DNA of 64,000 nucleotides. Source: Micractinium sp. NFX-FRZ (Eukaryota > Chlorophyta > Trebouxiophyceae > Chlorellales > Chlorellaceae). The stretch lies in assembly GCA_029339195.1 (NCBI GenBank), contig JAPTJF010000003.1:434001-498000 (forward strand), written 5' to 3'. The notes below the pieces were generated by a model. That model was given only the letters and a program-made list of their open reading frames with translations. It was not told the DNA's origin and searched no databases. Shown one piece after another: positions 1-64,000 of this stretch (position 1 is the first letter of the stretch; the number at the start of each line of letters is the position of its first letter). Both the position numbers and the translations under genes were made by a program.

Positions 1-1186
1 TCCCTCAATCAGCTTGCAGGTCGACTCAAAAGCCAGCGCGTTGAGGGAGGTGCGCTCACGCCCCAGCATCTTGCCTGCGGGAGGGAGCGGGGGAGGGCAG
101 TGAGGGAGAACGGGATGGGTGAATGAGCGAGGTGCGCTCACGCCCCAGCATCTTGCCTGCGGGAGGGAGCGGGGCAGAGGCAGAGGGAGCAGGGCTGGGT
201 GGGTGAAGCAAGGTGTGTTTAGGGGCCAGCATCTTTCTTGCCTGCAAGCTGGGAGAGGTGGGGACACGAAGCACAGAGAGGCAGGGTGGGCGAGCGGGGA
301 GCCGGTCTCGTCCCAGAGTGATCACGCCCCACCCGTACTACAAACTATGGTGTGGAAAACCGTCCTGCCAGGCTGGATCGCTCTACCTGAGATGGTGGCC
401 GCTGACAGCACATCCGCCTCGTGTCCCAGCATGCCCTCTTCCCCCGCCGCAGCCTCCCGCTGTATCACGCTGAACAGGCGGTCCCGCTTGTCCTCGCTGA
501 GGGTCTTGGAATCCGCAAAACCCCTGCAAGTGGGGCGTGGCACAAGAGGGTCACGTGGGCTTGGATTGGGCCCAGCAGACAGGCACGCTTCTCTGTGTTG
601 AGAGTCTGCAGCACACGGGCCCGTGCAGAAAGGGATGACGCAAGAGCAGGGTTTTTGGGCGGTTGTGGTGCATGTGGTGGTCGCCACGCAAACCCCCCTC
701 CTCTCTGCCGACATGCCCTTGCCTTCTTCCCAGCTCAGCTCTCCCATGGCAGCCCCGCCCTGCTCACATGCCCTTCAAGTCCTTCACACGGCTTATGGGC
801 GCAAACGCCACGCCGTAGACCACTGCAGGTGGGGGAGCGTGAGACGGGGGGTGGGGGAAGAGGGCAGGAGGTGCAGAGACAGGCGGGAGGCTCCCAAGCA
901 CTGGCATCCCACACAGCGGGGTCAGGCTGCTGAGAACTTACTCGGTCCCAGCACCGGCCCACGCCCCGCCTCATCTGCACACAATTGACGGGAAGCAGGT
1001 CATACGTGTGGTTCAGGAGCCCTGTTGACATCACAATGAAACCCCTCCGCCTCCTCTGCTCGCCCGCTGCCGTCGCCCCACTGCCACTGTCCCTTTAGAC
1101 AGCAGGAAGCCCTCTCCAATCAGCGCTTCACCTATGCCGAGCATGCACGGCTCCTTGTACCATGCTGGTGCCCCTTCGCCGGCCAT
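1..1186 (-). CDS. RNASEH2A: Ribonuclease H2 subunit A (catalytic), 3' end outside window
   Basis: Catalytic subunit of RNase H2, which removes single ribonucleotides and RNA-DNA hybrids from genomic DNA in the nucleus. Five exons read on the minus strand: 1132-1186, 942-974, 768-822, 387-523 and 1-74. All have GT-AG borders and phases that join without error (118 codons seen; the rest lies left of the window). The spliced protein starts MAGEGAPAWYKEPCMLGI and runs into DEAGRGPVLGPMVYG, the family's catalytic Asp-Glu block, split between exons 1 and 2. Exon 4 gives the family signature ADSKTLSEDKRDRLF. Exon 5 gives MLGRERTSLNALAFES, matching the human MLGR-x-N-L-N stretch. It is divergent from the Pol5-like gene. 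The start is the first ATG of exon 1. The intron before exon 5 carries a duplicated acceptor (see the repeat at 47-174). Confidence 0.9.
47..174. repeat. 46-bp direct repeat duplicating the exon-5 acceptor of RNASEH2A
   Basis: The 46 bases at 47-92 recur without change at 129-174, offset 82 bp. On the minus strand each copy contains the polypyrimidine tract, the CAG acceptor and the first 28 bases of exon 5. A third, weaker copy sits near 218-250. Only the copy at 47-92 continues into open coding sequence, so the other two are decoys inside the intron. Confidence 0.9.
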
Positions 1187-1468
1187 GGCCGCGAGACGAG
1201 TGTTTGAAGGTGGTGGCCGGAGCTGCTGGCAGCTGACGGCTCTTGCGACGTATCAATGACAGGTGGATAGCGCTGTGGCGTCGGCAGGCCTGTGGGCCGA
1301 TCAGCAGGCAGTGGCGGTGGGGAGACGTGGCACTGCCACGCTGGCAAGTTTTCACTGAGCGCGCGAATGGAGGAGATGGCACGCCATCGCACTTAGAAGG
1401 GGAATTTTGACCTTTATAACACCGTCCAAAGCTCGGCTGCCGCCTCCCCCGCGCAGCGCTCGGGCGGA
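1187..1468. promoter_or_regulatory. Divergent promoter region RNASEH2A / POL5-like
   Basis: These 282 bp separate the two start codons, so the promoters of both genes must lie here or overlap the 5' UTRs. GCGCGAAT at 1361-1368 is, on the other strand, one base away from an E2F site (TTTCGCGC). A short AT-rich patch with TTTATAAC lies near 1414-1421. No core promoter element can be asserted from sequence alone. Confidence 0.45.
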
Positions 1469-2407
1469 ATGCCTGGCCAAGTGTCGGCGCTCACAGCGGG
1501 CGACACGGTGAGTGCAGGGTATTAGAACCCTCGCCATGCATTGTGCCGCGGGGCCTCCGAGCCGCATGCATGGCCCCCAGCCGCCGCCCAACCTGCTTGT
1601 TCTCTCCCCTGTGCCGCCCCTGCAGCTGCTGGGCCACTTCTGGGATCTAGCGTCGCTGGAGGAGGTGAGCATTAGCCGCCGGCGCTGCAGGGAATGGGGA
1701 GGCAGGTACCTGCCGCCACCACTGCCGCCGCCAGTCTGCCCGCCGCCTGCCAGCGTGCCCACTTGCGCCCTCTGAACCGCCTCCTGTTTACAGGACAAAC
1801 GCGAACGTGCTGCCCAGGCACTGGTGGAGGAGCTGTTGAAGAACCAGAAAGAGTTTGAGGACTCTGCTTCTGATGAGAGCGATGAAGAGGAGGGGGAGGG
1901 AGCCAAGGGCAGGGCCGTTGACCACGCCCTGCGCCGCTGCTCGCCACTGATGGTGCGCTTGCAGGCGCACAGCTGCTGCTGCTGGCTTGTGCCATTGTGG
2001 CATTTCATTGCTTGGGGCGACATTGCATGGCATGAAGCCCGGCCTGCAGGGCGCAGCGGTGGTATCGCACATGCTCTCGCCGGAGCCGCTCCTTCCTGCC
2101 TGCCCTGCTGCCTGCCGCCCTGCTGCTGCCAACCCTGCAGCCGCCCCCCATCAACCCCTTGTCATCAGGTCTATGCCTTCAAGCGGCTGTGCCGCGGGCT
2201 GGGGTCCAGCCGGCAGGGCGCGCGCCAGGGCTTTGCGCTCGCCATCACATCGCTGATGGCCAGCAAGCAGTGCCAGTGCATGGGGCCTGCAGAGGCTGTG
2301 GCGGCGATTGAGGGGGTGCTGGAGCCTGCGGGCAAGGTGAGAGACATGATATGTTATATGTTATAATTATTGTGTGTGGGCAGGCATGCTGCTGTTTCTC
2401 TGCACTC

Positions 2408-2440
<33 letters not shown>

Positions 2441-3846
2441 GCTGCTGCTGCTGCTGCTGCCGCTGCTGCTGCTGCTGCTGCCGCTGCTGCTGCTGCTGCT
2501 GCTGCTCGGTGCTATTGCTCGGTGCTGCCTGTGAAGGCGGCGGTGAGCGCCAAAGCGGCATGGCGCAGTTCAGGGCAGCGGCGATGGGCCCGCTTGCGCT
2601 GTGCATCCAGGCAACCTGCGCGCTGCCGCTCAGCCTGCTCACTTCCGCTTACGCGCCCCCTTGTGCCTCGCTTCCCCCTTCTGACTGTGCAGGGCACCGA
2701 GCTGCGTGATGCCCTGCTGGGACGCATCTTCGGCTATGCTGCTGTGGCGCGCTGTGGTCGGGCCCTGCCTGCTGAGCTGGTGCTCAGCATGGCGTCGGGC
2801 CTGGTGGGAGCAGCTGGCAAGAAGTCGTTCCTGCGGGAGGTGGCCGGTGAGTGACCCCTTCCCTGCCTTGCCCTTGCCTGGGGGCTGCTGTGCGGGCTCA
2901 GCTAATGCCGATGTGCCCCGGCCTAGCATGCCTCCCCAACTTCCCGCCTTCACCCCTGCTCCCGCCCCCGCACCTCCTCCCCCCTGCAGGCGCCGTGCTT
3001 TTGGAGCTCTGCCAGGCCTCTGATGACGCCACCCTGGCAGCGCTTGTGAGCGGGCCCCTGGCCCCCCTGGCGCCCTGGCTCACCGCCCCCCCGGCCGACG
3101 CCTCCCCCGATGCGCTGCTGCTGGCGCTGCGGCTGTGGCCGCGCCTGCCGCCGGCTGCTGTGGCCGCCTGCCCGCTGCTGCCTTCCGGGCTCAAGCCCAA
3201 GCAGCTGCCTGCCAACCTGTTCACCGACCCGGCAGCGGCGGTGGGCAGCAAGGCGGCGGCGGCTGTGGCGGCTGCTTTCTTCACCCGCCAGCACCTAGCG
3301 GCGCTGCTGCCCGTGCTGCGCGGCACCACTCAGTCGCACCCACGCCTGCACAGCGTGTGGACCACCCTGCTGGCCCTGCTGATCCCGGGATTCAGTGCCG
3401 ACAAGGTGGGGATTCGGGCGGGGATTGGGGCGGGGCGGGCGAGGGGATGTTGTGATCCGGGGGGCGGGGCACACATTTGTGTTGCTGCAGCGCTGTGTAA
3501 TGAATGAATGATAGAATGGGTGTGGGGGCAGCGCAGGTGAGCGGCTTGGCAGACAGGCGTCGTGCTCGGCAGCCGCCCTTCCCAGCCCAATGCCTTCACC
3601 ATTCCTGCTTCACGTCACCTCACCTCGCCTCACCTCACCTCACACCCGCCCCCGCTCCCTGGCTGTGTCCTCTTCTGCAGGAGCAGCGCAGCGCGGGCGG
3701 CGCCGCCGCAGCGCGCCCCGCCGCCCCCTGCCTGGAAGCCTTTTGGTCTGTGGTGGTTGATGGCGACCTGGTGCAGTCCTCACACGAGCGCAAGTACCTG
3801 GCGCTCACCCTCTTCCTCTTGCTGCTGCCGCACCTGGGGTGAGCCC

Positions 3847-14464: not shown

Positions 14465-16530
14465 GCCTGCTGTGGTACGCCGGCTGCTGCTGCCCGCTGC
14501 CCCTGCCCCTGCTGAGGCCCTGCTGCATGAGCAGGCTCTGCCTGGCGGCCCTCGTCTGCTGCAGGCGCACCGCTTCCACTGCCACCGCTGCCGCCGCCGC
14601 ACTCTGCGGTGGCCCCGCTGCTGAGCGTGACTGACAGCAGGGAGCGCCCAGACGTGGCCACCTGCGCCACCGCCGCCGCTGGCAGCGCCGCTGCTGCCTC
14701 CTCCTCGTCCTCTGCCCCTGCGCCGCCCTGCCCACCGCTGCCGCCTCTGCCGCTGGCCGCAGGCACCGCCGCTGAACCGCAGCTGCGCATGCTGTGCACC
14801 ACGCAGGGCGGCAGGCTGGGCTTCACGGGGAATGCCTCTCTCACCGCCTCCACTGCCACTAGCGCTTGGATGCGGCGGGCCGACGACACGTAGAGGAGCA
14901 GCGTGAGCGGCACGCGCAGCAGCCAGCCCCGGGGCAGCCCCATCTGCTCTTCTAAGAAAGCAGAGAGCTCCTGCAGGCGGCAGGGAGGGGCGTGGGGGAG
15001 GGAGCCCAGGGGGGTAGGTGGGCGAGCAAGGGGCAGTGGGGCAGGGCAGGGACGGGCCGGGCAGGTCGGGGCGGGGCAGGCTGCAGTGCTTGCACACGTG
15101 TCGACTTGCTCCCCAGATTCCGGCCCTAACCTAAACAAACCATACACCCCAGATCCCATACACTCAGCCTGGCTCGCCTGCCGGTTCGCCCGCCCGTCCG
15201 CCCCGGCTACCGTACGCCCCCACCCCACCCACCTTGCGCCCCCGCCCCTGCTGCTGGTCGGCGCTGCCAAACAGCAGCACGCGCCCCCGGCTTCCGTCCA
15301 GCTGCACAACCTTCTCGCCCTGCCACCCCTGGTAGCGGGGGCCCTCGGTGGCGCTGGCGTGGAAGGCTGCGTGCAGGCGGTCGTCTGTAGGGAGGAAGGC
15401 AGAAAGCAAAGGACAGGGAGCAGACATTCGGAAGGGTGAGCAAGGATGGGGGGCAGACGTCAGGGAGGGGGAGCGCGTGTGGGCGGGACGGGCAGAGGAG
15501 GGTGGGAGGGCAAGTGTGTGCAGGTCAGGAGGGCAAGCGGCGGGTGGGAGGCTGCGTGCAGATGATCTCAGGAGGCGCGGGGTGGGGGATGGGGGCAGGG
15601 GGCCAGGTGAGGGGCAGTTAGGCCCAGGAAGCAAGGAAGGGGCGGGCCAGAAAGCGATTGGCAGTGGCAACCTCAGAGGCGACGGCCGGGCAACAGGGAG
15701 GCTCACACAGCCAGGAATGCAAAAGAGTATGCATACACACCACGCTCCCAAAACCTAGCCAACTGGTGCACTCGCGGCAGGATGTCCCTCCTGGCATCAT
15801 GCCACCAGCCGGGTCTGTCTCCCTGCCCCGCCCTGCAACCCAGCCCGCCTGCCGGTGATTGGGATCACCTGCCTCGGTGCCGCGCGCATACAGCATGCCG
15901 CAGGTCGGGCAGCGAAAGGAGTGGAAGTGGCGCTGCCCTACGTCCAGGTACATTTGTGTGAGAGGCCGCTGCTGCTGTGGCGGCGGCGCACGTGGCGCCG
16001 GCTTGCCGCCGGCCCCAGCCTCGGCTGCAGCGGCTGCGGCAGCGGTAGCGGCAGCGGCAGCGGGGGCCGCTGCCCCCGCCTGCATTGATGCCGCATCTGC
16101 TGCGCTGCCGGCTGCGGCAGCAGGGGACGGCGTTGCGGGGTGTGCTGCTGCTGCTGCCATGCCGCCGCTGGGCCTGCAACCGGGCGGGCGCAAGGTTGGC
16201 GGTGCACGGTCAAGAAACGGGGAGCTGAGTAACAGCAGCCAAGGACGCCTTGAGCAGGGTGCGCTTTGACACTGTTGAAAATACTCACCGCTTGCGCTTG
16301 CGGGAAAACTGCTGCTGCACTCCTGCGCTGCTGCCAGCGTGCGGTGGCGGAGCCGGCGCCTCTCCCGCCGCGGGCGCCTCGGCTGCCGCCGCCGCTGCTG
16401 CCCCCTCCGCTCCGACTAGTGTCGGCGCTGCGTTGCCTCCTGCAGCAGCTCCAGGTGAGGCGTGCCGCCTTCCGGCCGGCTTGGAGCCCTTGGGTGGCAG
16501 GGCGCGGAAATACGACTTGATGGGCTGCAT
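13812..16530 (-). CDS. ECO1: Cohesin acetyltransferase Eco1/Ctf7 (ESCO family)
   Basis: Acetylates the Smc3 subunit of cohesin during S phase to lock sister chromatids. Five minus-strand exons, 511 residues: 16289-16530, 15869-16173, 15233-15384, 14207-14970, 13812-13884. The N-terminus MQPIKSYF resembles a PCNA-binding PIP box with Met in the first place. The zinc finger is split by an intron: C-P-T-C-G-M in exon 2 and H-A-A-F-H in exon 3. The acetyltransferase core has the CGVRLMWVSVEARRRGLATR coenzyme-A loop, then HELAFS, and the conserved end TGTRRFLVYE. About 150 low-complexity residues, including ten consecutive Gln, are inserted where animal proteins have a short loop. It is divergent from dUTPase. 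Exon sums and phases agree exactly. Confidence 0.93.
14434..14463 (-). repeat. (CAG)10 coding for polyglutamine inside ECO1
   Basis: Ten pure CTG units on plus, read as ten Gln codons in exon 4 of ECO1, flanked by further Gln/Ala-rich sequence. It lies in the insert between the two halves of the acetyltransferase domain. Confidence 0.95.
15546..15575 (-). repeat. Degenerate copy of ECO1 exon 3 start and acceptor
   Basis: On minus, this stretch repeats the beginning of exon 3 with its upstream splice region (15358-15395): GGCTGCGTGCAG is shared and the flanks are degenerate. It is 190 bp upstream in transcript direction, inside intron 2. Confidence 0.65.
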
Positions 16531-16692: not shown

Positions 16693-18210
16693 ATGCTCTA
16701 CGGCCTGCGATCTTCCCTTGCATACCGCTGCCTGCCGCTCTTGTGCATCAAGCCCAAGCACCACCGCACCGCCGTCATGGCCAGCACTCTGGCTGCCACA
16801 GGCCGGGAGAATGTTCCCGCAGAGCCCGCAGCCAAGGTGCAACGCACGGAGGGGCCAGCGGCAGCGGCACCCGTGGAGGCGCTCCGAGTGCGCCGCTTGA
16901 ATGAGCACGCGCTGCTGCCTAAGCGCGGCTCGGCGGGCGCCGCGGGCTACGATCTGGCCAGGTAAGGGTGAGAGCATCACGCGGTATGGTCGCCCTGGGA
17001 GGGCTGCAGCAGCAACTTGACAGGCCTTGCCGCCGGTCCCGCCCGCTGCGGCCCTTGCAAACACACCGCCCTTGCTCACCCCAAACCGACCCTTGAGCCC
17101 GCCTCCTCTCCCTCCTCCCTCTGCGCAGCTGCGAGGACACCGAGGTGCCCGCCCGCGGCCGCGCCGTCGTGAAGACAGGCCTGCAGATTGCCTGCCCGCC
17201 TGGCACCTATGCACGCGTGGCGCCGCGCTCCGGCCTGGCCGTGAAGCACTTTATCGACACGGGGGCGGGCGTGGTGGATGAGGACTACCGAGGGGAGGTG
17301 GGCGTGGTGCTGTTCAACCACGCAGACACCCCTTTCCAGGGTGAGTGAGTCGGGGGGCCGTGTTTCTTGGGCTGCAAGCAGCCAGGGGTGGGGGACTGAG
17401 GGTGGGCTCGAAGTGGTGGTAGGCGGCAGCAGGGTGGCGCGGGACAGGGTGGGCCCTGGGCTGCCCAGGGAAGTGTGTGGGTGCACAGTGCTGTCGGGAG
17501 GACCGGTGCTCTTACATGCACGCAGGCGCACCCCTGCAGCTTGCGCAAGGGGATTGGGGGGAGGGAGGCGGGAGGGAAGGGAGGGGGTGTGCCAGGGCAG
17601 GGGGTGTGAGACAGGCACAGCGGCGGCGGGTGGGCGGCAGGCGGGGCTGGCAGCGTGGCGTGCTGCGCTGTGCTGTGCTGTGCTGTGCTGCGCGCCTCAC
17701 CCCGCAGTTTGCGCCCAGGTCGAGTCGGAAGCTGGTGAGGCAGGTGGCAATGAGGTCGCTGGAGGCGTCTGTGGGGGCAAGGGGAGGGCAGGTGGGCTTG
17801 GTCCAGCCTTCCTCCTGCCTGGCATGCCAGCACCAGCCTGGCACCCCAGCACCCCCCTCCCCTGCTTGCTCTCACCCGCACGTCGCAGCCGCTCCGCGGC
17901 TGTGACCCGCTTGTCTTGCCCCCTTTCACCCTTCCTCCCCACCCTTCACCTGCAGTCGAGCGCGGCGATCGCATGGCTCAGCTGATCCCGGCACGCGTCG
18001 AAGCCCTGCCCCTTTACCCGTGTTGAGTGATCGCTGCCTTCGCACCCACGTTTTTGCCTTCCTCCTCACCCACGTGCAGTCAAGCGCGGCGACCGCGTGG
18101 CGCAGCTGATTCTGGAGCGCATCGCGACGCCTGATGTTGAGGAGGTTGAGAGCCTGGATGACACACAGCGGGGAGCGGGCGGCTACGGCTCCACCGGAGT
18201 GGCCAGCTGA
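16693..18210 (+). CDS. DUT: dUTPase (deoxyuridine triphosphate nucleotidohydrolase)
   Basis: Hydrolyses dUTP to dUMP and pyrophosphate, keeping uracil out of DNA and feeding dTMP synthesis. Three exons: 16693 (or 16777)-16961, 17129-17340, 18080-18210. All five motifs of the trimeric family are present: [38 protein letters not shown] and the C-terminal P-loop-like GGYGSTG. From ATG 16777 the protein has 175 residues. An in-frame ATG at 16693 adds 28 residues rich in Leu/Arg/Lys with no acid, as in an organelle presequence. So one gene could make nuclear and organellar forms, as in mammals. The intron before the last exon contains a decoy copy of that exon (17956-18026). Confidence 0.95.
17956..18026 (+). 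pseudogene. Duplicated decoy last exon of dUTPase
   Basis: Preceded by a good acceptor (CCTGCAG at 17949-17955), this 71-base stretch repeats the first 45 bases of the true last exon (18080-) with roughly 78% identity and in the same phase. Spliced to exon 2 it reads [20 protein letters not shown] and ends in TGA at 18024-18026. It keeps motif IV in altered form but lacks the glycine-rich motif V. The pyrimidine tract in front is also duplicated. Whether it is ever spliced in cannot be seen here. Confidence 0.8.
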
Positions 18211-19956: not shown

Positions 19957-22900
19957 ATGGTGCGCGCTGCCGCTTTGGCGGCCTGCCTGCTGGCCCTGGC
20001 CGCAGGCGCTGCCGCCCAGACCTGTACCCCGGGTGAGCATCCCGCCGCCGCTCTGCGCCCTGGCTCTCTGCCAGCCAGCCAGTCAGCCAGCGCCAGCAGC
20101 ACAGCACAGCACAGCCAGAGTCCTCACCTCCTGCTCCTTGTCTGGATTCAACCCTGGCTGCCGGGGCGGCAGACGCAGGACACCACTCGAGCAGAGCACG
20201 CATGGTTCCACCGCCGCCGGCACACCCGCCGCTGCTGCTGCCACCTGCTCCCTTCTGACCCCCTGACCTCTTCCCTCCTCCTGCACCCTGCCTGCTCCCC
20301 TGCAGGCCACCTCAAGCTCGACCTGGTGGCGCCCATTGGCACCACCGACATCCTGGCCCGGTGCCTCACCTCTTTCAACCTCAACATTGACGCGGCGTGC
20401 GGGGTGAGTGGGCAAAGCACACAGCCCAGGGCATGGCATACAGCGCAGGACGGGCAGCTCACACGTGGTTGCGCTTCAGACGAGGCCCATGCGGAGCAGC
20501 GTGCTAGGCGTGTGGAGAGTGCGGAGGTGCAGCGGAGAGGAGCCAGTCAGTTGCGGCAGCTGGCCCGGGCCTGACCTGGCCTCCCTTGCTGCCGTGAGTG
20601 AGGCAGGCCCTCTCTGGTTTGCCAGCCCAGCCACTGTCGCCGCACCCCCACGCCCCGCGCCCCACCAACCCCTTTCCCCCTCCCCCCCACACGCCCCCTG
20701 CAGATCTCCATCGTCGCCAACCAGAACCACGGCACCTTTGTCCCCGGCGTCTGGTCCTCCTCCCCCGACCCCCTGCTCATCTCCGAGTCTCGCATGGATG
20801 AGTGCCCCTCCTCCCGCCCCGCCGTCCCCATCACCATGGGCACCGGCACCAAGCTGGAGGCTGTGCGCCGCGCGGTGATCAAGGCCCTGGCCGGCTACGT
20901 GTATGGCCTGGATGTTGATGGCGAGTACAACTACGAGCTCTACGTGCCCGACCTCGACTGGAAGACCGGCCGCATTGTGGTGAAGCGCAACGACCAGCGC
21001 GGGTTTGGCCTGCTGAACATTGTGTATGCCATCACCGAGGTGGGTGGGCGGTGCCAGGGTGGCATGTGGTGAGGGTGGCATCTGGGTGTGGCATCGTGTG
21101 CCGCTGCCTGCCCGGCGGCGGGTGCGGGGTGCCTGGAGCGGGAGGCTGCCGTGGGGACCTCTCCGCAGCAAGGCAGCAAGGCCCAGCTGACCTGCCCGGG
21201 CACCGTTTACACAATGTTACAGCTCTGAAGGCACCGGGGCTCCCACGCTCCGCCCATCCCCTGCCCACCTCCCCGCTCCGCAACACCTTGCAACCCCACC
21301 TGCCGCCACGTCACCCTCCCCCTCCCCCTTTCCTCTCCCGTGCAGGCTGATGTGTCTGAGCTGGATTTCCTGGAGGACGACGACACTACCCCCCTGGGCG
21401 AGGTCATGTCTTGCACCAACCTGACCACCTCCGACCAGTACGACGCCTCTGGCCTGTGCTTCGAGAACGACCAGGCCGATGGCCCCTGCCCCGACCAGAC
21501 CTACCCCGTCATGATTGTGGAGGACAACGCAGTGAACGCCTGGAACGAGAAGCTGCAGGCATTCAAGCTCTGCGCCTGGTGCCCCGCCGGTGAGCCCCGC
21601 TGCCCGCTGCCGCCCGCTTGGCAGCGCAGCGGAGTGCACGCGCTGCTGCACGTGTGATGGCACAGTGCATGTGCTGGCACAGTGCACGCAACCTTCGTGC
21701 AGTGTGCTGTGCTGGCATGGATGTGCCAGCGACCCAGCCCCCTACTCTTCAGTGCCGCTATGGCTCTGCCGACACCCCAGCACACTGCGTTCTGACCTTG
21801 CGAGTGCCCTGTCCCCGCTTGTGCTGCAGGCACCTTCGGCGACGGCTACGGCTGCACCACCTGCCCCGCCGGCCAATTCTCCGAGATCGGAGGCCCATGC
21901 ACCGACTGCCCCGCCGGCACCTACTCCAACGCCGGCAGCGCTTTCTGCATCCCCTGCCCCACCGGCACCTACTCCGCCTCCGTTGGCACCAAGGAGTGCT
22001 CTGAGTGGTGAGCAAGGCTGCCTCTTGTGTGCACGTGTTGCTGCCTGCCAGGCTGCCAGGCTGCGCCTGCCTGGCTGCCCTGCAATCAACCATCCATGCA
22101 GCTAGCGCATCCCTCGACACACCCATGCCCTGACACACCCATTCCCTTTCACCGCCTGTGCAGCCCCGAGGACACCTATGCCTGGATCCCCGGCAGCACC
22201 GCCTGCCTGCGCTGCATCCAGGGCATCCCCGAGGTGTGCGACCCCGACAGCGGCTGCCCCAGCGGTGACGCCGCCCTCAAGCCCAACGAGACCATCTCCA
22301 CTGTCACCGGTGAGTCATCACTCCCGTGGCAGCGGAAGCTGCAACCCGTGGCTCCCTGCCCTGCTGTGCCTGCTGCCTGCCTGCGTTTTTCCCCCTGGAC
22401 ATGCCTGCCGTGTCCCACCGGCGGGGCATGCATCTTGCTTGCCAGCCTGCATCTGTTCCCCCCCTGCCAGTGGTGCTCCACTGCTCACCAAGATCCATGC
22501 CCATGCGCCCCACCCCCACTTGCAGCCACCCACATTGTTGACGTGGCCGCCATGACCGCCAACGACGGCACCTGCAACCTGAACGCCGCCAACCCCGACT
22601 ACGAGATCAAGGCCTTCACCAAGTGCAAGGACTGGGCGACCTCCATGCAGCTTGCCTTCACCGTGTACGGCGACTGCTCCATCCAGATCTCCCCCATCTC
22701 TGATGACACCTGCTCCCACCCCACCAACACCACCACCCACGAGTATGGCGCCATCCAGCAGCGCGCTTACTATACCGGCGTCAACGGCGACTTCAAGATC
22801 CGCTCCCTGTTCGACACCACCAGCGGCGTGACCAAGTGAGTGGGCGGGGCGAGCCGTCTCCTGTGCAATTCCCCTGTCGTCAAGCTTACTGGCCGACCGA

Positions 22901-35600: not shown

Positions 35601-36498
35601 CGCACGTGTCGCCAGCGGCCTGGCATGTGCTTGCCATATCAACGTGCTGGCCCCTGCTGGCCTTCCCACTTTCCCTGCTGCCCTTCTCACTTTCCCCATC
35701 TTCACCTTGGCACCCTCCTCTCCCCTGCTGCAGGTGAGGCATGCAAGGCCGCCCCGGCCGGCACCTTTGTGAACACCACCGGCGCGTTTGTGACCACCCC
35801 CTGCCCCCGCGGCTCTTGGAACGACGAGCAGGCCCAGGACAACTGCAACCCCTGCGCCCCCGGCAAGTACTCCAACACCCTGGGCTCCAAGGAGTGCAAG
35901 ACCTGCCCCGCCGGCACCTACTCCGCTGGCCAGGCCATCAGCTGCCTGGACTGCCGCCCCGGCTACGCCGCCCCCGCCGGCGCTGCCGCCTGCAGCCCCT
36001 GCAAGCCCGGCACCTTCGCCCCCACCGGCAAGTCTGCCACCTGCCGCCTGTGCCCCAAGGGCTACCAGTGCCCCACCAACGCCATGAGCAAGGAGGGCGC
36101 CTGCCCCAAGGGCACCTTCAGCAACAAGGAGGGCAACCGTCTGTGCACCCCCTGGTGAGTGAGGGTGTGGGCTGGGCTGGGGGTGAGGGATGGGCTGCCC
36201 CGCTCTGCTCTCGAGGCTTGTGATGCTGTCTGTTCCATGTCAATGTGTTTTTTCGTGCCCCTGACGTGCATGCCAATCGTCGCACCCCCTGCCCCGTCAC
36301 TGACCAAAACACACCCTTCTTCCTTTCCCACACTACAGCCCGGTGAACACCATCTCCACCGGCGGCCGCGTGTCCAACACCCTCATCCAGCCCGTGATGG
36401 CCTGCACCAAGTGCCCCCCCGGCCAGAACACCCGCGGCCTGACCGGCCAGTCCAAGTGCCAGACCATCCGCCCCCAGGTCCGGCGCCTGAAGCTTTAA
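29612..36498 (+). CDS. Secreted cysteine-rich protein 2 with ephrin-receptor-like repeats
   Basis: Tandem paralogue of the gene at 19957; function unknown, predicted secreted. Twenty exons, 1160 residues: 29612-29687, 29901-29998, 30212-30541, 30710-30880, 31072-31153, 31349-31532, 31749-31891, 32050-32359, 32526-32649, 32816-33023, 33220-33351, 33529-33631, 33806-33866, 34010-34164, 34371-34486, 34653-34989, 35131-35199, 35352-35554, 35734-36154, 36339-36498. Signal peptide MARAAALAVCLLALAAGAVA. Same domain order: unknown N-terminal domain, GCC2/GCC3-type Cys modules, Cys-poor centre, more Cys modules. Exons 8, 9, 13 and 14-20 have the same lengths as in gene 1, although intron sequences differ. 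One extra intron (30881-31071) splits the exon matching exon 4 of gene 1. Codon bias is as strong as in gene 1. Confidence 0.88.
34195..34330 (+). repeat. Tandem copies of exon 14 donor region in intron 14
   Basis: The end of exon 14 and the intron start (34155-34180, CCCCCTGGTGAGCTGAGTGGCTG with short interruptions) recur as TGCCCCCTCTGGTGACTGGC near 34222 and TGCCCCCTTTGGTGGCTGGC near 34282. Shorter GGTGCCCCCT units lie between them. Confidence 0.7.
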
Positions 36499-46023: not shown

Positions 46024-49000
46024 TCACGCCACGCTCAGCGTGAGCAGCTCGTGCACGATGCGCACGCGCCAGTCGTCAATCTGCTCCTGGCAGAAGGCCA
46101 TGGGCGCCCCCCGCCCCGCGTGGTTTGCAAACAGGAGGGTGAACACGCCGCAGTCGCAGCCGTTCTTCTGCTGGGGGATGCGCTTCGGGAACTCGCGCGG
46201 CCAGTCCAGCACGTCGGCGCGCTGCGCGGGCGGGCGAGAGATGAGGAGGAAAGGTCAGGTGAGGAGGCGGCGGGGACAGTGAAGGGGTGTGGAGCAGGGC
46301 GGGATGCCACGGAAGCGCACGGAAGCGCCACCTGGTGCACGCCCCGAAAACTCCCCCTCCCTGGTTTGTAAGACGCCTACCCAGCCCGCCCTCACCTCCC
46401 TCTCCCCTTTTGTTGCGGTGCACCGCTCTGACAAGAACCCGTGGAATGCAGTCTGCTGAAAACTGTAGACTCCCTCGAGCCGCCCGGCTGTGCACGCCTC
46501 GCGGTGGAATGCTGCTGTAAAGACTGGGCCAGGCTCACCTCCTCCCCCCGCTTGTTGCGGTACTCGTCCCGCAGGTACTCAGCCAGGTGCTCCAGGCAGC
46601 GGTGGTCCTCGCCCTGCAAGCACACACACAACACACACATGTTTCGGGCGTCACTGTCATTATAGATATGATTTGGCCGCCGGACATGTGACAGAGAAGA
46701 TGACACCCTGCCCGCACTCAGCCCCCCAGCTTGATCCCCACCCTGGTGCCCGGCAGGAGATGAACCCACACACACAACATGCCTCACACACACATCCTCG
46801 ATGAGGCTGAACAGCAGCCCGCCCCCCGCCCTCACCCTGAGCGAGTCGCACAACACGGAAAAGCACACGGCACACAACATGCCTACTAGATGAGGTGGCC
46901 AGCACCCCGTTCCCACCTAGAGTGAGTTGTAGTAGGCACAGCAGCACACAACACGCCTACAGGAGTTAGGTAGCCACAGGATTGATTGGCTGTTCACACC
47001 TTGAGCGAGTCGTAGTAGACAAACTTGCGGTGCTGCAGGTCGATGACGGCGCACACCCAGTGCATGCCCTGCGACGCGACGGTGGGGTGGGGTGGGCAGG
47101 TGGGTGTTGGGGGGGCCGAGGCCTGCGGAAGGCGGGGCATGCACGCAGGGAGGGGTGCTGGGGCCCAAGCGGTGGCCGGGCTGCCTCCCACACGCTGGCC
47201 GCCTCCCCCCAGATCAAGGCACACAACCATTGGTCCGAGCGCATAAGCCAGCCTCACTCCACCCCCGCTGGACTTGCTCAACGCTGCACTTTTCAACCAC
47301 CTGCACATGCACCCAACCACTCAGCCCAAACCCATCAATCCTACACACACCTGGTGCTTGCAGCACCACGACCCAATCACCAGCACAAGCACACCCTGAG
47401 CACCCGCTCAAGAGCATGCAAACAAACCCACACACGTACACACCTGATGCACCGGCACCACGATTCTGTCCACGTCCAGAATGCTGTCGCTGGCCTGCCC
47501 CGAGTTCTTCAACTTCTTGGGCATCGTCCAGCGGCGCACCTGGGAGAGGTGGGGAGGGGGGAGGGGAGGTGGAGAGGTGGGGGTCAACAGCGGGTGGATG
47601 TGAAAAGCGGGTCTGAAGCGGGTCAAATGAAGGGTGCTGTGCGCTGTGGCCTCCCACAGGCACGGAACCCAGCTCCCGAGCGCCACGCACTCGAATAACC
47701 CGTGTCCCGTGTACACACTCGCAGGCCCCGCAGGCCCCTTTCTCCCTCCCAAACACACATCCCCGTGCAATCCTCACATTGTTGTAGCCGGTGTCAGCCC
47801 AGGCCCCCCCGCCCCACCCCCGCTCACACACGCACACAAAGCCCACGCCGGCCCGAGGGGGAGGGAGAGAGTAGGCGCCTAAACTGAGGCACACAACACC
47901 CAGGAACCGCAGGCTTCTCTTCTCATTGGCGTAACCATGAAAGCACATCCTCTGTGATCCTCACCACATAATTGCACACACATGGGGAGGGGAGGGGGCA
48001 CCCACCCACCCACCTGGTCGTAGTTGTACCCGGTGTCCTTGTACAGCTTGTTGGCAAAGAAGGTGGAGAAGAAGTGGCAGCGGGGGCCGGCCACGCCCTG
48101 CAGGCGCGGAGCCCGTGCAGTGGGTTAGGGAGTGTAGGGTTTGTGGCGAGGGTTGCGGAGATGGGCCAGTGGGGGCACCAGCATATTCTTAAGACGTGGC
48201 AGAACAGAGGCGCCAGCCCGTGTGCCAGACTGGCGGCTGTTGCCCTCCGCAGCCCTTAAGCTGTTGCACCCCACCCCAGCATGCATCCAATCATCCCACA
48301 CCTCTTGCACCACGCAGCACTCCTTCTACCCTACATTCCCCACCTAATCCACCCCCCGCACACACACCTGTTGCGCCACGCAGGACTCCCCATTGCCCCG
48401 CACTGCCCCATATGACACCACCTATCATCCCTCCCCCTGCGCATGCACGCACCTCCTTGCGCCGCGCCGCGTCCCGCTCCAGCAGCAGCGAGATGTACAG
48501 GTTGATCACCTCGTCGTTCAGCCACTGCGGGGGGAGAGAGGGAGGGGGAGGGAGCAAACGTCCTTTGAATGATCAAGAAACGACTAGAAACGAGTGGCGG
48601 TCGCGAGGGGAGGGAAGGGACGTGGTGATGGAGCGGGTGAGGTGTTGAGGCTGTCACTTTGCAGGTCAGCCACATGGGGGGTGCGTGCTGTGTTGGACAG
48701 CAGCTGGAACATCCTACCCTCATACTTTCCTCCCGGCTGCAGTTGCACCCTGGTCCTGCACCCCCCTCACGAAAGGGTGGGCTCATGCACGCAATGCAGC
48801 GCCTGCTGGCACAGGCAGCCCCTCCCTGGGCACGCCTGGGCGGGGCGCACGCACTGACCTGCAGCCGCGCCATGCAGGCCATGTCCCTGCGCGTGATCTG
48901 GATGGAGGAGCGGGGGTGGTCCACCAGCACCTCCCCCGGGGGGCCTGCCGGGAGGGGAGGGAGAGAACAGGAGTCAGTATGCATGGGATGCATGGGAGAT

Positions 49001-57468: not shown

Positions 57469-58913
57469 ATGCAGGCCACCATCCAGTTGCAGGCGGCCGC
57501 CACGGCCCCTGTGGCCCGCCGCGTGCAGCAGACCCGTGCCGTGGCCGGTCACTGCACCGCTCCCCGGCCTGCTCGCGTCAATGCGCCAAAGGTTGGCGCC
57601 ATCACCCCCCAGCGGAACGTGGCAGCTCACGCCAAGGGCGCCATCAAGCCCATGGAGGCCACCTTCACTGATTTCAAGCTGGTGGACAAGAGCCACAAGG
57701 TAGGGGCAGCAGGGGAGACAGGGTTGGGGCCTGTGGGCGGCGGCGGCGGCGATGACTGGTGCCGCCGCCGCCGCCTGCAAGGCGCGGGTGCCAGCTGCCT
57801 GCCGCAGCTGTGGCACTCCGGCTCTTCCATACCTGGCCTGCCTCAGCGGCACGGTGCCTGTGCGCTCAACAGCAGCACAGGTGCCTGGCGAGCTGTCCTG
57901 CCCAGCCTCCGCTGCCACTGTGCGTCGCCAGCCGCGCTCACTCTCCCCTTCCTCCGCCCTGCCTCCCCCTGTGCAGACCACCTGGTACGCGCTGCTGGCC
58001 TCTGCCGAGTTCTTCTTCAACGACGCACAGAACGAGCAGGTGGCGGAGAACCTGCGCGAGCGCGTGCGCTACCTGAACGAGCAGGTGGGTGGTGTGATTT
58101 GCCTGACAGTGAGGAACCCAGCCACAGACGGTGGCGTAGGGTGCGCCGCTGCGCTGCCCAGCTGCGCTGCGGGTACTGGCAGCCCCCGTCTTGGTACTCT
58201 TAACCCTGGCTCGTTCCTCTGTACCGCCTCCCGGCTTGCTCCCTCCGTCCCTAACGGGACTGTCGGTTCCCTGCTGACTCACCTCCCCCTGACTTGCGCG
58301 CACTCCCCCTCCTCTCTGTTGTGTGGCTGGCTGGCGCAGGGCCGGGAGGTTGAGATGCTGTTTGCGTGTGAGCCCGCCTGGCTGGAGAAGATGTTCCCTG
58401 AGGAGGCCAAGAAGATTCGGCGCCCCGCTGTCGCCCTGCTGTGCCCCGACAAGAACTGGATGACGTGAGTGGGGGGTCCCAATGAAGGGGGGCCGGGCAG
58501 GAAGCGGATGCAGGCAGTTTGGCGAGAGGTGGGTTGGGGTGGAGCAAAGCGCGGGTGTGAATTCACGAACAGGCGCTGGATGGATGAACGTGAGCATGGC
58601 TTGGGGGCAGGGCAGAGGGTGTGGGGCACCCGCCATGCATGGCGCCCCTCCTGCCTGGCCTCGGCCTTCCACTTTCCTGGCAGCTTGATTCGCACCCGCT
58701 TGACGCTCCTCACGCCTTGCCCCCTCCCACCTTCCCCGCAGCTTCATGCGCATCCGCATGGACCGCGTCATCGAGGTCTCCCTGCCCGACATGACCGCTG
58801 AGGAGGTTGCCACCAGCACGCAGCCCGTGCCCAAGTTCCCGCCGCCCGCCAACTGGACCGCTCCCTACGTCCCCTACGCCTGGGGCTGGTGGGAGCGCTT
58901 CATGCTCAAGTGA
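57469..58913 (+). CDS. YCF54: Ycf54 (LCAA), Mg-protoporphyrin monomethyl ester cyclase subunit
   Basis: Plastid protein needed for the aerobic cyclase (CHL27/AcsF) that makes the fifth ring of chlorophyll. Exons 57469-57699, 57977-58084, 58340-58464, 58742-58913; 211 residues, phases agree. Exon 1 (77 residues) is an Ala/Arg/Thr-rich, almost acid-free transit peptide (MQATIQLQAAATAPVARRVQ) plus the start of the mature part. The conserved DUF2488 core follows: TTWYALLASAEFFFN, VAENLRERVRYLNEQGREVE, then the FMRIRMDRVIEVSLPDM strand. The C-terminus is Trp/Pro-rich (YVPYAWGWWERFMLK), beyond the cyanobacterial length. Cyanobacterial Ycf54 is about 105 residues, so the algal form is extended at both ends. 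Confidence 0.88.
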
Positions 58914-59678: not shown

Positions 59679-62600
59679 TCAAGAGGCCTGCTTGAAGCCG
59701 CTGCCGGGGCCCAGCCGCTCCAGCTGCACCTCCAGCTTGTCGCCAACCGCAGAGGCCCAGGCCTGCAAAGGTGGAGAAGCAACACAACAGCAAGACTTAA
59801 AAACAGGGTGCCAGGTGGCATGCCAGGTGGCAAGTGTGTGAACAGGCAGAGGATGGAGCAGAGGCCCAGGCCTGCAGGGATGCATGCATGGCAACACGGA
59901 GTGATGGTGTCGGCCAGCGTGCACAGCAGCAGGAGCGCAGGCCTGCGAGGGTGGAGCAGCAACACAACAGCAAGACGTTAGAACGGGGTGCCAGGTGGCA
60001 AGTGTGTGAACAGGCAGAGGATGGGATAGAGGCCCAGGCCTGCAGGAGGCATGAAGACAAGGAGTGGCGGTGTCGGCCAGCGTGCACAGCAGGACCAGGC
60101 CTGCAGGAGGCATGAAGACACGGAGTGATGACGTCAGCCAGCGTGCACAGCAGCAGGGGCGCAGGCCTGTGGGGCATGGGGTGTACAGAGACAGCCATTG
60201 ATCTGGGGTCCTCGTTACATTGCACTTGATAGTGGCAGCCATTGATTTGTACATGGGCTTCTACCATCTTCTAAAGGCACAACCGCTGGTGCCCCATCAG
60301 CTCACAGCGCCCTCGGCACCGCTGTCACACCTGACTCACATGGCCAACTCTCACAAGCACACCCCGCCCTCAGCACAGCTGCCCCACTGACTCGCACAGC
60401 CACCTCCCGCAAGCACACCGTCCCTCCCTCCTCCGCCCGCCCACCTGGTCCAGGCGGGTGAAGCCGCGCTGCGTGTCGGACCCCACCACCAGCACGCCCT
60501 GCGGCCCCACCGGCTGGATCAGCGCTGCCTGGCAGTTGGGGGGCAGGTAGGAGGAGAACTCCAGCCGGCCTGCACACCATACCACAGGCAAGCGTTGATT
60601 GCATTGGTGGAATGCAGATGCAGGAGGGGCCAGGACGGGCAGGGAGCACACGGCAGACGCCCCTGCCACTCACGCACACTCCGGGTAAGAATATGAAACC
60701 CTTGCTGTCTCACAATGTTCACTCACCCACCCATCCTGAGGAGCGCGCCAGACTTGCCAGATAGTTGCCTCTGCAGGCGGCACCCTCCACCCCATTTCGT
60801 CCATAACAAAACCTGCAGCCACCCCAACACACGGCGCCCACCCACCCACCCGCCCACCCTGGGAGCCTGGGGGGAGCGCCATACTTGCCAGGTCTTTCCG
60901 CTGCAGGCGGCACCCTCCACCCCATTTCGTCCACAACAAAACCTGCAGCCACCCTGACACACCCACCCACCCACCCACCCACCTGGGAAGAGCACCAGGT
61001 TTGCCAAGTAGTTGCCGCTGCACGCGGCGCCTCCACCCCATTAATCCCGTACAAACTTGCAGTCTTTTTATTACTTGCACTAATTCTACATCACCCGCCC
61101 ACCCACCCGGGAAGAGCACCAGGTTTGCCAGATAGTTGCCCGTCCCGCTCTTCATCGCCTGCTGGCAGATTGGCCCCGGGGAGGCGGCGCCCGCCGCCTG
61201 CCCTGCCGGCGCAACGCCCACCTGCACGTAAGGAAAGCGCCCACCAGGGCAGCAGCTGTGTGTGTGTGTGCATGGCATGCGCCCGCCTGCATCCTATGCC
61301 GCCTGCACCCCGCTCGGCAGCCTGGGTACTGACACAGGTGCGCTCAAACACGCAGACGGCGCCCAGACCACCGTGCCCTGCCGGCAGCAGCAGCAGCAGC
61401 AGCAGCCGGCACACAGCAGCCCAGGCGTTGACGCCAGCACATGCGTTTTGCTGGCAAGGCGGGGCAGCAGAGCAGCCCAAAAGCAGGCCCGTCGCATTTG
61501 CATGTATGTGCAGCTTGGCGCGCATGCGACTTAATTGCACATTGTTTTCAAAAAGCACCCACCTGCATGAGGCACCGCCCGCGGTAGAAGAAGACTAGAC
61601 ACCGGGCCCGGCTGGTGGACTGAAGAGAGTCCCACACCCTGCGGCAGGCGGCGGAAAGGCGGGGGTGCGTGTATGAGATGGGGCGAGGGGAGGGCGGGAG
61701 GGCAGGGATGCAGGTGGGCAAGCGCCGCACGGGGCTAGGGCCAGTGGGCAGATGGGGGCTGCTAATGGAGGGCAACAGGCGTGCAACGAGTGCTGGCATC
61801 TGCAGGGGGCCTGAACGTGCAACGACGCAGCCCTTTGGCGGTGGATGCCAGCCAGGCCTCGCATCGGGCCAGCCGCTGCAGCAACCCTGACGCCACCGCA
61901 ACATGTTGCACCGCTGCCTGTCGCCGTCGGCGGCGCAGGCCGGCAGGAAGGCCCTCCCTCTGCACTGCACCCCTGCTGCACCACGCCACTTGCCCATCAC
62001 ACCATTCACCCCTGCACCCCTGACAAGAGTGCCTCGGGCAGGCCTCTCACCCGCCTGCATACCCCTGCCTGCTGCGCAGCAACCCTCACCCCGGCCACCC
62101 ACAGGCGCCTCACCACTGCAGCTCCGCCACCAGCGCCTTGGGCAGGCCGGGCGCATAGAAGGCCACCTGCTCCCCCTCCAGCTCCACTTGCTTGGGCTCC
62201 TTGGGCTTCAGTGTGAGCCACTGCAGCCCCGTCAGCACCAGCACGGCCGACATGACGATGACCGCCACGTCAGCACGCGACTGCGCTGAGCCGGCAGACA
62301 CCACCGGCGCAATCTGCATAAAAGTGAGGTGGCAAGCAAGAGCTGATAATGGCTGCCATGTCGGCACGCGATTGCGCTGACCCCGCAGACACCACCGGCG
62401 CAATCTGTGCATGCAAGGGTGGAAGGGTGGGGGAGGGGCAGGTGGGGTGGCAGGGAGTAGCGCTGATGGCAAGGGCAGGGGCAGCACTGCGGGAAGGAGG
62501 TGCCACGGGGGGCCACCGTCCTTTTGGTACCAGCTGATGACGCGATGTGATTTGAGCGGAGCTCACCGCAGCCAGCCAGAGCGCGGCCAACCATCCTTCC

Positions 62601-63156
62601 AGGACACGCCAGCCCGGGCAATGGCGGCAGGACAGCGGGCACCATGGCCGCGCCATACTCGGCCAGGCGTCAGGTGAGGCCACCCAGCGGCCCACCCCAC
62701 CCCACTGCAGGAAGTAACCCAACAGACCAATGAGGTGCCTGCCCTGCCCACCCACCCCAGAGACCACTCGGTTGGCTACTACTCCAGCGATGCCGACGGC
62801 CCCCGCCGCCAGCGGCAGTGCTCGGAACACTTCAGGGAACCGAGCCACCAGGCTGCCCTCTTCACCCTGCATGGCAGCACCGAGTTCAATATCTTGCTCA
62901 AACACTGGTGTTTGACTGGTGCTTGACTGCTCAACAAGCAAAACGGCATCATTGTGATGGCGGGTGGAGGTGGAGGGTGGAGCAAACAGACCTGCGGGGT
63001 GGCGGCGGCGCGGGCGGGGGCTGGGCATTGCCGCTGCTGCTGGCGACGCTGAGCCCGTGCATTGCGGCCCAGCGGTCTGAAGGATGGTTGAAATGGTACA
63101 GGCCTGCGGTTGAGGGTCGCAGGGCCGCTACTGGCTGTTGCAGCGGAGACTCGCAT
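59679..63156 (-). CDS. CCB4: CCB2/CCB4-family cytochrome b6 heme assembly factor
   Basis: Thylakoid membrane protein of the CCB pathway that attaches heme ci to cytochrome b6. Seven minus-strand exons, 311 residues: 62992-63156, 62756-62926, 62114-62313, 61563-61638, 61107-61221, 60445-60569, 59679-59762; phases agree. Exon 1 is a Ser/Arg/Gln-rich transit peptide (MRVSAATASSGPATLNRRPV). Two hydrophobic segments follow: LPLAAGAVGIAGVVAN (exon 2) and VAVIVMSAVLVLTGLQWLTL (exon 3), then LKPKEPKQVEL. The family blocks are VFFYRGRCLMQVGV, GNYLANLVLFPGR, LPPNCQAALIQPVGPQGVLV and SDTQRGFTRLDQAW. CCB2 and CCB4 share this fold; I favour CCB4 from the NYLANL...FPGR and DTxRGFT blocks. Three introns are swollen by copies of the adjoining exon ends. 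Confidence 0.82.
59763..60180 (-). repeat. Tandem copies of exon 7 start and acceptor in CCB4-like intron 6
   Basis: The acceptor and first bases of exon 7, CTGCAGGCCTGGGCCTCTGC in the copies, recur near 59855-59880 and 60025-60050 with partial copies near 59940, 60095 and 60160. They sit inside a roughly 190-base higher-order repeat that also contains AACACAACAGCAAGAC and GTGCCAGGTGGCAAGTGTGT. Only the first copy leads into the open terminal exon. Confidence 0.88.
60721..61106 (-). repeat. Three tandem copies of exon 5 end and donor in CCB4-like intron 5
   Basis: Unit of about 115-125 bases. The exon 5 end reads GGCAACTATCTGGCAAACCT then GGTGCTCTTCCCGG and GTGGGT (61107). The copy at 60956-61080 keeps this almost exactly and would still encode GNYLANLVLFPG. 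Copies at 60836-60955 and 60721-60835 are more decayed but share CGGCACCCTCCACCCCATTT on plus and an identical arrangement. Confidence 0.92.
62350..62412 (-). repeat. Copy of CCB4-like exon 3 start and acceptor in intron 2
   Basis: A 57-63-base stretch nearly identical to the start of exon 3 and its acceptor (62257-62318), 94 bp upstream in transcript direction. It keeps a usable AG and the same reading frame locally (IAPVVSAGSAQSRAD). Because 94 is not a multiple of three, splicing to it would shift the frame of the true exon. Confidence 0.92.
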
Positions 63157-63518
63157 GATGTGCCGCTGCTGGGGGAAGTGCCGCCTGCTCACGAAGCTCT
63201 CAGAAAAGCAAAAAATCAGATGATCCTGTAGACGCCGGTTCTACCCGCAGATGAAGGCGGAAATGGCGGGGCTCGAGTTGCTGCTGGGCGTGCTTTGTGG
63301 GGCTCCCTCTGGCTCCCCTGGCCACCTGCGCCGCTGCCTCGATTGATGCCGAACTTGAAGACTTGCGTTAGGGATTGTGGAGCAGATTGTGACGTCCCAG
63401 CGGGCCACCACTCCCCAGCAGGGTTTGCAGGCCCGCTTGTGCTGCTTTGTTGCGTGCCGCAATCGTCTTGGTCAGCACGTGACGCGATTTGTGAACATCT
63501 GGGATCGCAACACAGCAC
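63157..63518. promoter_or_regulatory. Divergent promoter region CCB4-like / right-edge gene
   Basis: 362 bp between opposite start codons. No specific element recognised. Confidence 0.35.
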
Positions 63519-64000
63519 ATGCGGCAGCTGCTGGTGCTTTCGGCGGCACCGCTGCCGCCACTGACGGTCAGGCGGGCACTGACACCCGCAGAGCTGCGGG
63601 CTGCCGGCAGCTTGCGGGCGGCAGCCTTTAACAACGTGCCTGCTGACCGAAGCGAGTTTGCCCGGCAGGTGCGCTAGAGGCAGGTGCAGGGCAGGCCAGG
63701 GCAGGGCTGACGGGCGCTTGGCCTGGGGGCGCTGCCTGGCACTGCAGGTGCAGCCCTGAACCGTGCGATGCCTGCGCCTGTGCTGATGCAGCCATCTCTG
63801 GCAACACCTCCTGCTTGCACCTGCTTGCACCTGCTTGCACCTGCTTGCACACCACCCCGTGCCTGGCGTCGTTCCGTAGCACCCACCCACCCACCCGCCG
63901 GCGCCCACCTGCCTGCCCGCCCACCTGCCCTACCCGCAGAGCTTCCTGCGCATGCGGGCCGACACGGCCTGGCACACATTAGAGGCCAAGGTGGCAGGGA
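63519..64000 (+). CDS. Possible GNAT-type acetyltransferase, N-terminal part only
   Basis: Partial: exon 63519-63668 (50 codons) and a second exon from 63940 to the window edge, joined by GT-AG in phase 0. The protein begins MRQLLVLSAAPLPPLTVRRA, then LTPAELRAAGSLRAAAFNNV, PADRSEFARQ and, in exon 2, SFLRMRADTAWHTLEAKVAG. A pattern of helix, 'LRAAxF', then a charged helix before the expected first strand resembles the start of plastid GNAT proteins in algae and plants, but the coenzyme-A loop lies outside the window. The true start could be upstream in another exon. Confidence 0.5.
63811..63850 (+). repeat. (CTGCTTGCAC)4 in the intron of the right-edge gene
   Basis: Four exact tandem copies of a ten-base unit within intron 63669-63939. 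Confidence 0.95.

Follow-up and report, generated by a model that had tools for sequence, protein, structure and literature searches.

Same-strand copies of exon-intron junctions within introns of the green alga Micractinium sp. NFX-FRZ as probable fossils of tandem duplications

A sizeable minority of introns in the green alga Micractinium sp. NFX-FRZ contain copies of the edge of the exon that adjoins them, lying on the same strand as the original and at a distance of roughly one hundred bases from it. These copies were studied starting from a stretch of 64,000 nt (assembly GCA_029339195.1, contig JAPTJF010000003.1, positions 434,001 to 498,000 of the forward strand; hereafter the window) and were followed into further parts of the genome, giving 314 kb of DNA in all. 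Such same-strand copies occurred in 78 (16%) of 491 introns of at least 150 nt; they involve 80 junctions, and 30 of the 59 genes have at least one. The copies are probably the fossils of ordinary tandem duplications that spanned exon-intron junctions and were tolerated since the outer splice site works; it looks as if introns lengthen by one duplication of about 100 bases at a time, with the outermost splice site still in use. A preliminary description of the window had held that introns across it are built from such copies, which proved correct in kind, the copies being in excess over controls, and overstated in scale, the window itself having 6 carriers among 91 introns as compared with 14 of 76 just upstream of it, 36 of 171 in contig C1 and 22 of 153 in contig C2.

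The DNA examined was made up of the window with the 50 kb that precede it, plus 100 kb from C1 and another 100 kb from C2, together 0.5% of a 66 Mb genome in 838 contigs. A first pass over 264 kb, with 454 introns of at least 80 nt and 417 of at least 150 nt, provided the rates of junction, inverted, foreign-intron and interior copies, the spacings of intron-internal repeats and a period-47 array in C1, and the full 314 kb were used for the counts of carrier introns, the anatomy of the copies, the simulations and the exon-size test. Gene models came from a gene finder written for this study and trained on the sampled DNA itself, which converged on 76 gene calls with 596 introns in the 314 kb. 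Before counting, internal exons shorter than 30 nt were removed and genes then left with fewer than four exons were dropped (a rule that places DUT outside the counts), leaving 546 introns in 59 genes, from which introns shorter than 150 nt were left out to give the 491 above. Short-period simple repeats, amounting to 0.7-1.7% of the sequence, were masked. The splice motifs were sharp in the first 264 kb run of the gene finder (donor CAG/GTGAG and acceptor TGCAG/G, with the stroke at the junction), and introns below 78 nt made up 2% of the introns in the gene models.

Junction segments (positions -40 to +20 at the 5' junction and -20 to +40 at the 3' junction) were searched for in their own introns in the 264 kb pass at a high-scoring segment pair score of at least 30. 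Same-strand copies were found for 34 of 402 5' junctions and 32 of 406 3' junctions, and inverted copies for none of the 402 and none of the 406, in agreement with the single orientation reported in the preliminary description; the one inverted match seen (1/417) belonged to a 3' intron-interior segment. When the junction segments were compared with length-matched introns of other genes, 1 of 4020 trials (5') and 7 of 4060 trials (3') gave a match. Exon-interior segments were copied in their own intron in 1 of 257 and 4 of 256 cases and intron-interior segments in 11 of 417 and 8 of 417 cases, the latter rates differing from those of the junctions with Fisher p values of 3e-4 (5') and 6e-5 (3'). 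Junction copies exceeded all three kinds of control, exon-interior, intron-interior and foreign-intron.

The copies are also confined to the side of the exon from which they derive. For internal exons of at least 60 nt and a score of at least 34, copies of exon tails occurred in the following intron in 29 of 431 cases and in the preceding intron in none of 433, with a sole out-of-place copy two introns downstream (1/380), and copies of exon heads occurred in the preceding intron in 26 of 433 cases and in the following intron in none of 431. Direct-orientation copies of boundary-spanning segments, located at that same boundary, are what characterizes tandem duplication, and this is the arrangement found here. 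Only 2 of 76 introns with copies at a spacing of at least 75 were copied from both ends.

On the exon side the match had a median length of 29 nt (5') or 30 nt (3'), with quartiles of 21-42, and on the intron side a median of 5-6 nt with an upper quartile of 8-12. In about one quarter of copies the ungapped match ended at or before the junction (the intron part had lower quartiles of -2.5 and 0), so that the earlier statement that the copied piece always spans the junction does not hold. The spacing between copy and junction had a median of 123 nt (5') and 115 nt (3'), falling between 80 and 120 in 50 of 100 copies and below 80 in 5 of 100. Spacing showed no correlation with exon length (Spearman -0.006 and 0.03), and an exon-definition limit, in which exon length plus spacing would have to exceed a threshold, was rejected on this ground.

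Carrier introns are longer than others by about one such unit. Their median length was 375 nt as against 250 nt for copy-free introns, a difference of 125 nt to be set beside a median nearest spacing of 110.5, and the part of the intron remaining beyond the copied junction had a median of 245 nt, close to the length of a copy-free intron. The data are thus described most simply as an intron of ordinary length with one unit of about 110 nt added. The share of carriers rose with intron length, from 9 of 213 at 150-250 nt through 19 of 160 at 250-350 nt to 50 of the 118 (42%) that measured 350 nt or more. Together with the homology seen by eye across the whole unit in several arrays, these lengths, an indirect comparison with copy-free introns, sustain the earlier view that existing introns grow by repeated duplication at junctions, leaving arrays of decoy sites.

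The junction copies in the window are as follows, with positions and strand as in the window, spacings in nt and per cent identities between copy and original.
42 to 95, minus strand: RNASEH2A, duplicated segment holding the true intron end and exon start (3' junction at 74/75).
124 to 177, minus strand: RNASEH2A, copy of 42 to 95 (spacing 82, 96% identical).
211 to 241, minus strand: RNASEH2A, weaker third copy (74%).
15359 to 15376, minus strand: ECO1/ESCO, exon-start segment, with a weak copy at 15544 to 15561 that stops before the junction (spacing 185, 18 nt, 94%).
17947 to 18000, plus strand: DUT, copy of 18071 to 18124 within the intron (spacing 124, 81%).
18071 to 18124, plus strand: DUT, true 3' junction and exon start.
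43738 to 43812, minus strand: SAM50/Omp85, exon end and donor, with a weak, gene-model-dependent copy at 43625 to 43699 (spacing 113, 72%), seen with the first gene-model run only, coordinates derived from offsets.
46909 to 46938, minus strand: ULP1, copy of 46992 to 47021 (spacing 83, 83%).
46992 to 47021, minus strand: ULP1, exon end and donor (5' junction).
58723 to 58760, plus strand: Ycf54 gene, 3' junction and exon start, with a copy at 58665 to 58702 (spacing 58, 79%).
59749 to 59820, minus strand: CCB4-like gene, 3' junction of the last intron, with copies at 59858 to 59876, 59929 to 60000 (86%) and 60028 to 60044.
60985 to 61140, minus strand: CCB4-like gene, mutual repeats 61109 to 61140 and 60985 to 61016 (spacing 124, 94%), coordinates derived from offsets.
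62110 to 62148, minus strand: CCB4-like gene, 5' junction, with a copy at 62006 to 62044 (spacing 104, 77%).
62258 to 62316, minus strand: CCB4-like gene, 3' junction, with a copy at 62349 to 62407 (spacing 91, 88%).

Eight genes had been named as carriers in the preliminary description. RNASEH2A, DUT, ULP1 and CCB4 are indeed carriers, ECO1 and SAM50 are weak cases, and the lipase gene and cysteine-rich gene 2 had no junction copy at a score of at least 28, the latter containing an intron-internal repeat; the Ycf54 gene was missing from that list. Matches to Pfam or to solved structures back the window genes for a class 3 lipase, an ESCO acetyltransferase, Omp85/SAM50, a ULP1 protease, Rpb11, Ycf54, CCB2/CCB4, DUT and RNASEH2A. 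In the CCB4-like gene, 61109-61140 and 60985-61016 were both called as exons by the gene finder, which leads to a duplicated peptide in the predicted protein.

Other repeats were noted in and around the same genes. Introns of the CCB4-like gene contain tandem repeats of 130 and 61 bp (88%) at 60745-60980 and 60030-60153. In the region of the DUT gene, 167 bp (17614-17780) are 100% identical to positions 25724-25890 of contig C282, with apparently unrelated flanks on both sides, and reflect either recent dispersal of a copy or a fault in the assembly. An intronic dispersed repeat of about 40-80 bp at 3468-3522 has at least 27 further matches in the genome at 79-98% identity. The cysteine-rich repeat proteins are encoded by tandem paralogues at 19957-27030 and 29612-36498 that are 80% identical and have 18 intron positions in common. 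Their fourfold sites are 84% identical (531 sites), and 9 of the 18 introns at shared positions align better with each other than with the best non-matching intron, by a wide margin in one only; judging by this pair, introns in this genome would seem to change fast.

The outermost junction is the one used in the gene models. In five hand-picked, and hence non-random, genes its use was supported by homologous solved proteins, namely in DUT, in RNASEH2A and in the following three.
Starch synthase: junction copy at spacing 106, 93% identical.
Acyl-CoA oxidase-like gene: junction copy at spacing 102, 94% identical.
SNF2-like gene: junction copy at spacing 88, 100% identical.
The predicted DUT and RNASEH2A proteins hold residues missing in their homologues because the gene finder made micro-exons, which lie inside the copies (RNASEH2A exon 142-156 and DUT exon 17956-17964). 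The DUT of the window is close to the solved dUTPase 3so2, presumably a Chlorella protein, from which the micro-exon residues are absent, and those of the RNASEH2A decoy are likewise absent from solved RNase H2A in an alignment.

These observations would fit a simple course of events. A tandem duplication of a unit of about 80-200 bp, most commonly 80-120, would by chance span an exon-intron junction and leave two equivalent splice sites one unit apart. If the outermost site, nearest the exon, were used, the protein would be unchanged and the intron one unit longer, so that the event would be nearly neutral; the inner junction would become an intronic decoy and decay, and repeated rounds would give arrays. 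Duplications wholly within exons would be removed by selection, and in those wholly within introns both copies would decay and soon become unrecognizable, so that junction-spanning events would come to make up most of what is still visible. Selection on splicing probably also removes units below about 75 bp and copies that include more than about 60 nt of exon.

Several results weigh against this explanation and are given here together with the alternatives that they would favor. The gene models being ab initio, all junctions rest on prediction. Tandem Repeats Finder, run on the 314 kb with a minimum score of 80, detected no tandem array with a period of at least 60 and a match of at least 95%; young long units are thus missing from the sampled assembly, perhaps through assembly collapse, although C1 does contain a junction array with a period of 47 and a match of 100%. 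Copy frequency differs between genes beyond chance, a variation that the tandem-duplication model leaves unexplained, and the model equally does not predict the 2.6-fold higher frequency of copies on exons measuring 120-219 nt (junction copies on 42 of 302, versus 36 of 680 others, within-gene permutation p = 0.0004), a size class that was picked post hoc after inspection of exon-size bins.

The excess of junctions over intron interiors raises the question of a junction-linked cause, as had been suggested for the window. In such a scenario, a process directed at exon-intron boundaries (for example breaks, paired nicks, R-loops or replication stalls) would duplicate about 100 bp there at a much higher rate than in other places. 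A first simulation, with breakpoints and ages both uniform, gave 1207 junction to 587 interior introns (2.1) compared with 76 to 19 observed (6 interior without a junction copy), and a much wider spread of the exon part than was observed, and at first favored a hot spot at junctions, a reading given up as such once a simulation by spacing bin and age showed that the ratio hinges on decay, with the limit on the exon part remaining. In this second simulation, tandem duplications were placed at uniform breakpoints over genes and passed through decay and the same detection, under four decay settings. For units of 75-150 bp the simulated ratios of junction to interior were 1.5 (mild decay), 2.7 (older events), 4.8 (faster introns) and 417 (both), and the observed counts were 61 to 17, or 5 interior introns if those with any junction copy are excluded. 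The observed counts differed from the mildest setting (926:603, p 0.002) and were compatible with 415:156 (p 0.34) and 803:168 (p 0.35), that is, a uniform process reproduces them in two of the four settings; the strongest decay (417:1) predicts far fewer interior repeats than were seen. For units of 150-250 bp, 24 to 7 were observed as compared with simulated ratios of 3.8, 6.9 and 11.8 and counts of 728:0. Since the ratio varies with decay, no cause specific to junctions need be invoked; junction copies are recognizable for longer because the conserved exon anchors them, and the junction is special less than it looks.

Two departures from the uniform process persisted under all four decay settings. 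Units of 30-75 bp were nearly absent at junctions, with 4 introns compared with 38 with interior repeats and a simulated ratio of 0.64 to 1.5, and the exon part exceeded 60 nt in 4 of 85 cases (61 plus 24, an intron in both spacing bins being counted twice) compared with 26-47% in the simulations (p 3e-7 against the lowest). The spacings point the same way, those of intron-internal repeats falling between 20 and 80 in 46 of 72 cases, unlike the junction copies, half of which lie at 80-120. Such features, together with the higher junction than interior copy rates and the enrichment on exons of 120-219 nt, would suit a process aimed at junctions. The scarcity of short units and of long exon parts is expected from selection as well: a splicing filter would remove both, since sites closer together than a minimal intron, or exon copies readable as exon, would harm, although a special mechanism could account for both too. 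A junction-directed process is considered unlikely, if the strongest of the alternatives. There is a similarly modest chance that junctions attract duplication with a preferred geometry, of some 15-50 nt of exon and, going by the spacing, 50-80 nt of intron in a unit rarely below 75 bp and favoring exons of about nucleosome size, in which case repeated rounds of such duplication would in large part have produced the introns of this alga, the spliceosome retaining whichever site is outermost in an array.

A second set of adverse results concerns the intron side of the copies. Although several arrays showed homology across the whole unit, including the intron part, intron-side similarity exceeded the 95% null in 16 of 51 5' copies and 12 of 49 3' copies, leaving 72 of 100 copies with no significant intron-side homology; for these we infer an origin by tandem duplication. 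Ungapped similarity dropped sharply 5-15 nt into the intron, and there are well-kept copies with little intron-side homology, such as one of 54 nt at 94% and another of 41 nt at 98%. When simulated ages were derived from match identity, 48-80% of copies were more diverged on the intron side than about 95% of simulated ones, and in another simulation with uniform ages of 0-0.6 and equal rates, 82-84% of copies were expected to show intron-side similarity compared with 29% observed. A model of short copies (pieces of 30-50 nt) was initially favored by these two simulations and by the similarity ending just inside the intron. It was demoted to a rival because some settings of a later simulation, in which the detection step was repeated on the simulated copies under nine settings of age and intron rate, came close to the data. 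The best-fitting settings, an intron rate of 1 with t 0.20-0.50 (older events) and a rate of 2 with t 0.05-0.25 (introns decaying at twice the rate of the copied exon), placed 29% and 38% of copies above the threshold as against the 29% observed, and also approached the observed identities. The fit requires that the youngest events be omitted or that introns evolve faster, and other settings miss badly (for example 3% or 0%).

In its present form, this rival supposes that a piece of 25-55 nt, comprising an exon edge and its splice motif, was copied into the intron, or that a target site was duplicated around 50-80 nt of filler, by templated break repair or an introner-like insertion. Insertions made during templated repair should occur in either orientation, which is at odds with the lack of inverted copies at the 402 and 406 junctions. 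The spacers do not resemble a dispersed family, with 11 of 96 having a match elsewhere in the 314 kb and those matches shown being 20-60 nt long. The homology of whole units in several arrays also speaks against short pieces, and the lengthening of carriers by about a whole spacing suits filler plus copy and not a bare short copy. Such short-piece copying is regarded as improbable as the general source of the copies.

A role of the copies as alternative exons or splice sites under selection would be suggested by the decoys that score at least as high as the lowest tenth of the matching real sites (8 of 28 at 5' and 11 of 32 at 3' junctions) and by the fact that parts of copies were called as micro-exons in RNASEH2A, DUT and CCB4. 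The fate of the copies argues otherwise. Mismatches between copy and exon were spread over codon positions 1, 2 and 3 (99/873, 93/866 and 133/877), as expected for a free-drifting copy beside a constrained exon, with no coding constraint on the copy. Spacing was not in multiples of three, with remainders 0, 1 and 2 in 29, 38 and 33 of 100 copies and, in a smaller set ascertained independently of the junction, in 9, 8 and 11 (5') and 6, 10 and 16 (3'), so that selection on reading frame, considered as a candidate, left no overall signal. In decoys ascertained without using the junction, GT was retained in 15 of the 28 and AG in 18 of the 32, loss of the splice dinucleotide being about as frequent as change at neighboring bases; the T of GT was kept in 54% of the 28 copies as against 71-82% at adjacent positions, a weak hint only of selection on decoys. 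Given the flat remainders, the spread mismatches and the dinucleotide decay, the copies are taken as neutral decoys: they decay like neutral DNA, the homologues of DUT and RNASEH2A do not have the extra residues, and a function for the copies is very improbable. The idea that the matches arose by chance in GC-rich DNA or through faulty gene prediction, for which common low-complexity sequence and ab initio annotation might speak, is contradicted by the foreign-intron and inverted-strand controls, as the preliminary description had maintained for chance, and can hardly be entertained.

Intron lengthening is usually ascribed to transposons and slippage. The exon-anchored record in this alga shows another route operating at high frequency, seen in more than four in ten of the sampled introns of at least 350 nt. 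Each carrier is a natural competition between two related tandem splice sites, so that the choice between such sites, and the limits on unit length and on the length of the exon copy, become directly testable. In practical terms, gene predictors may call decoy micro-exons in genomes of this type, as happened here.

Among repeats, intronic minisatellites offer a comparison in kind, being same-strand tandem units with some multi-copy arrays, but the junction copies are anchored at exon edges and have a spacing below 80 in only 5 of 100 cases compared with 51 of 72 intron-internal repeats. As regards published systems, tandem duplication is established as a source of new introns (review, PMC3443670), and in the potato RdRp gene a tandem duplication across an intron-exon boundary made a new intron (PMC4974935). 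This nearest relative is alike in that the duplication runs across an existing boundary, so that 3' splice signals are doubled along with part of the exon (PMC4974935); it differs in that a new intron arose there, whereas here the copy lies inside an enlarged intron whose outer junction is crossed as in homologues (five genes), and in concerning one gene, whereas here 30 of 59 sampled genes are concerned and introns are lengthened from either end. Intron gain by tandem duplication of AGGT-containing exon sequence (PMC3443670, PMC4974935) likewise hides an exon duplication by splicing and leaves the protein unchanged, but the ends of its intron are the two copies of the unit, whereas here the unit includes pre-existing intron; none of 100 copies lay within 8 nt of the opposite splice site. 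Near intron pairs of Drosophila, attributed to intron sliding or tandem duplication (PMC2891723), also reflect small regional duplications at intron positions that alter gene structure, but involve new positions with no surviving sequence footprint, whereas here the position stays the same and the footprint is easily seen. Introners (PMC9860276) similarly enlarge or create introns by repeated DNA, but place one element in many genes, whereas here each copy resembles its own exon edge; introner-like spacers were considered and found no support, the outside matches noted above, within 0.5% of the genome, not amounting to a dispersed family. No report of junction duplications as a general intron feature in Chlorella or other green algae was found among open-licence PMC titles and abstract beginnings, a set that does not cover the Chlorella variabilis NC64A genome paper, and the excerpts of PMC3488318 and of the Coccomyxa genome paper (PMC3446292) contain nothing on such duplications. 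The kind of event is thus known from other systems, and what is new in Micractinium is its scale, with half of the sampled genes affected, and its outcome, the lengthening of existing introns.

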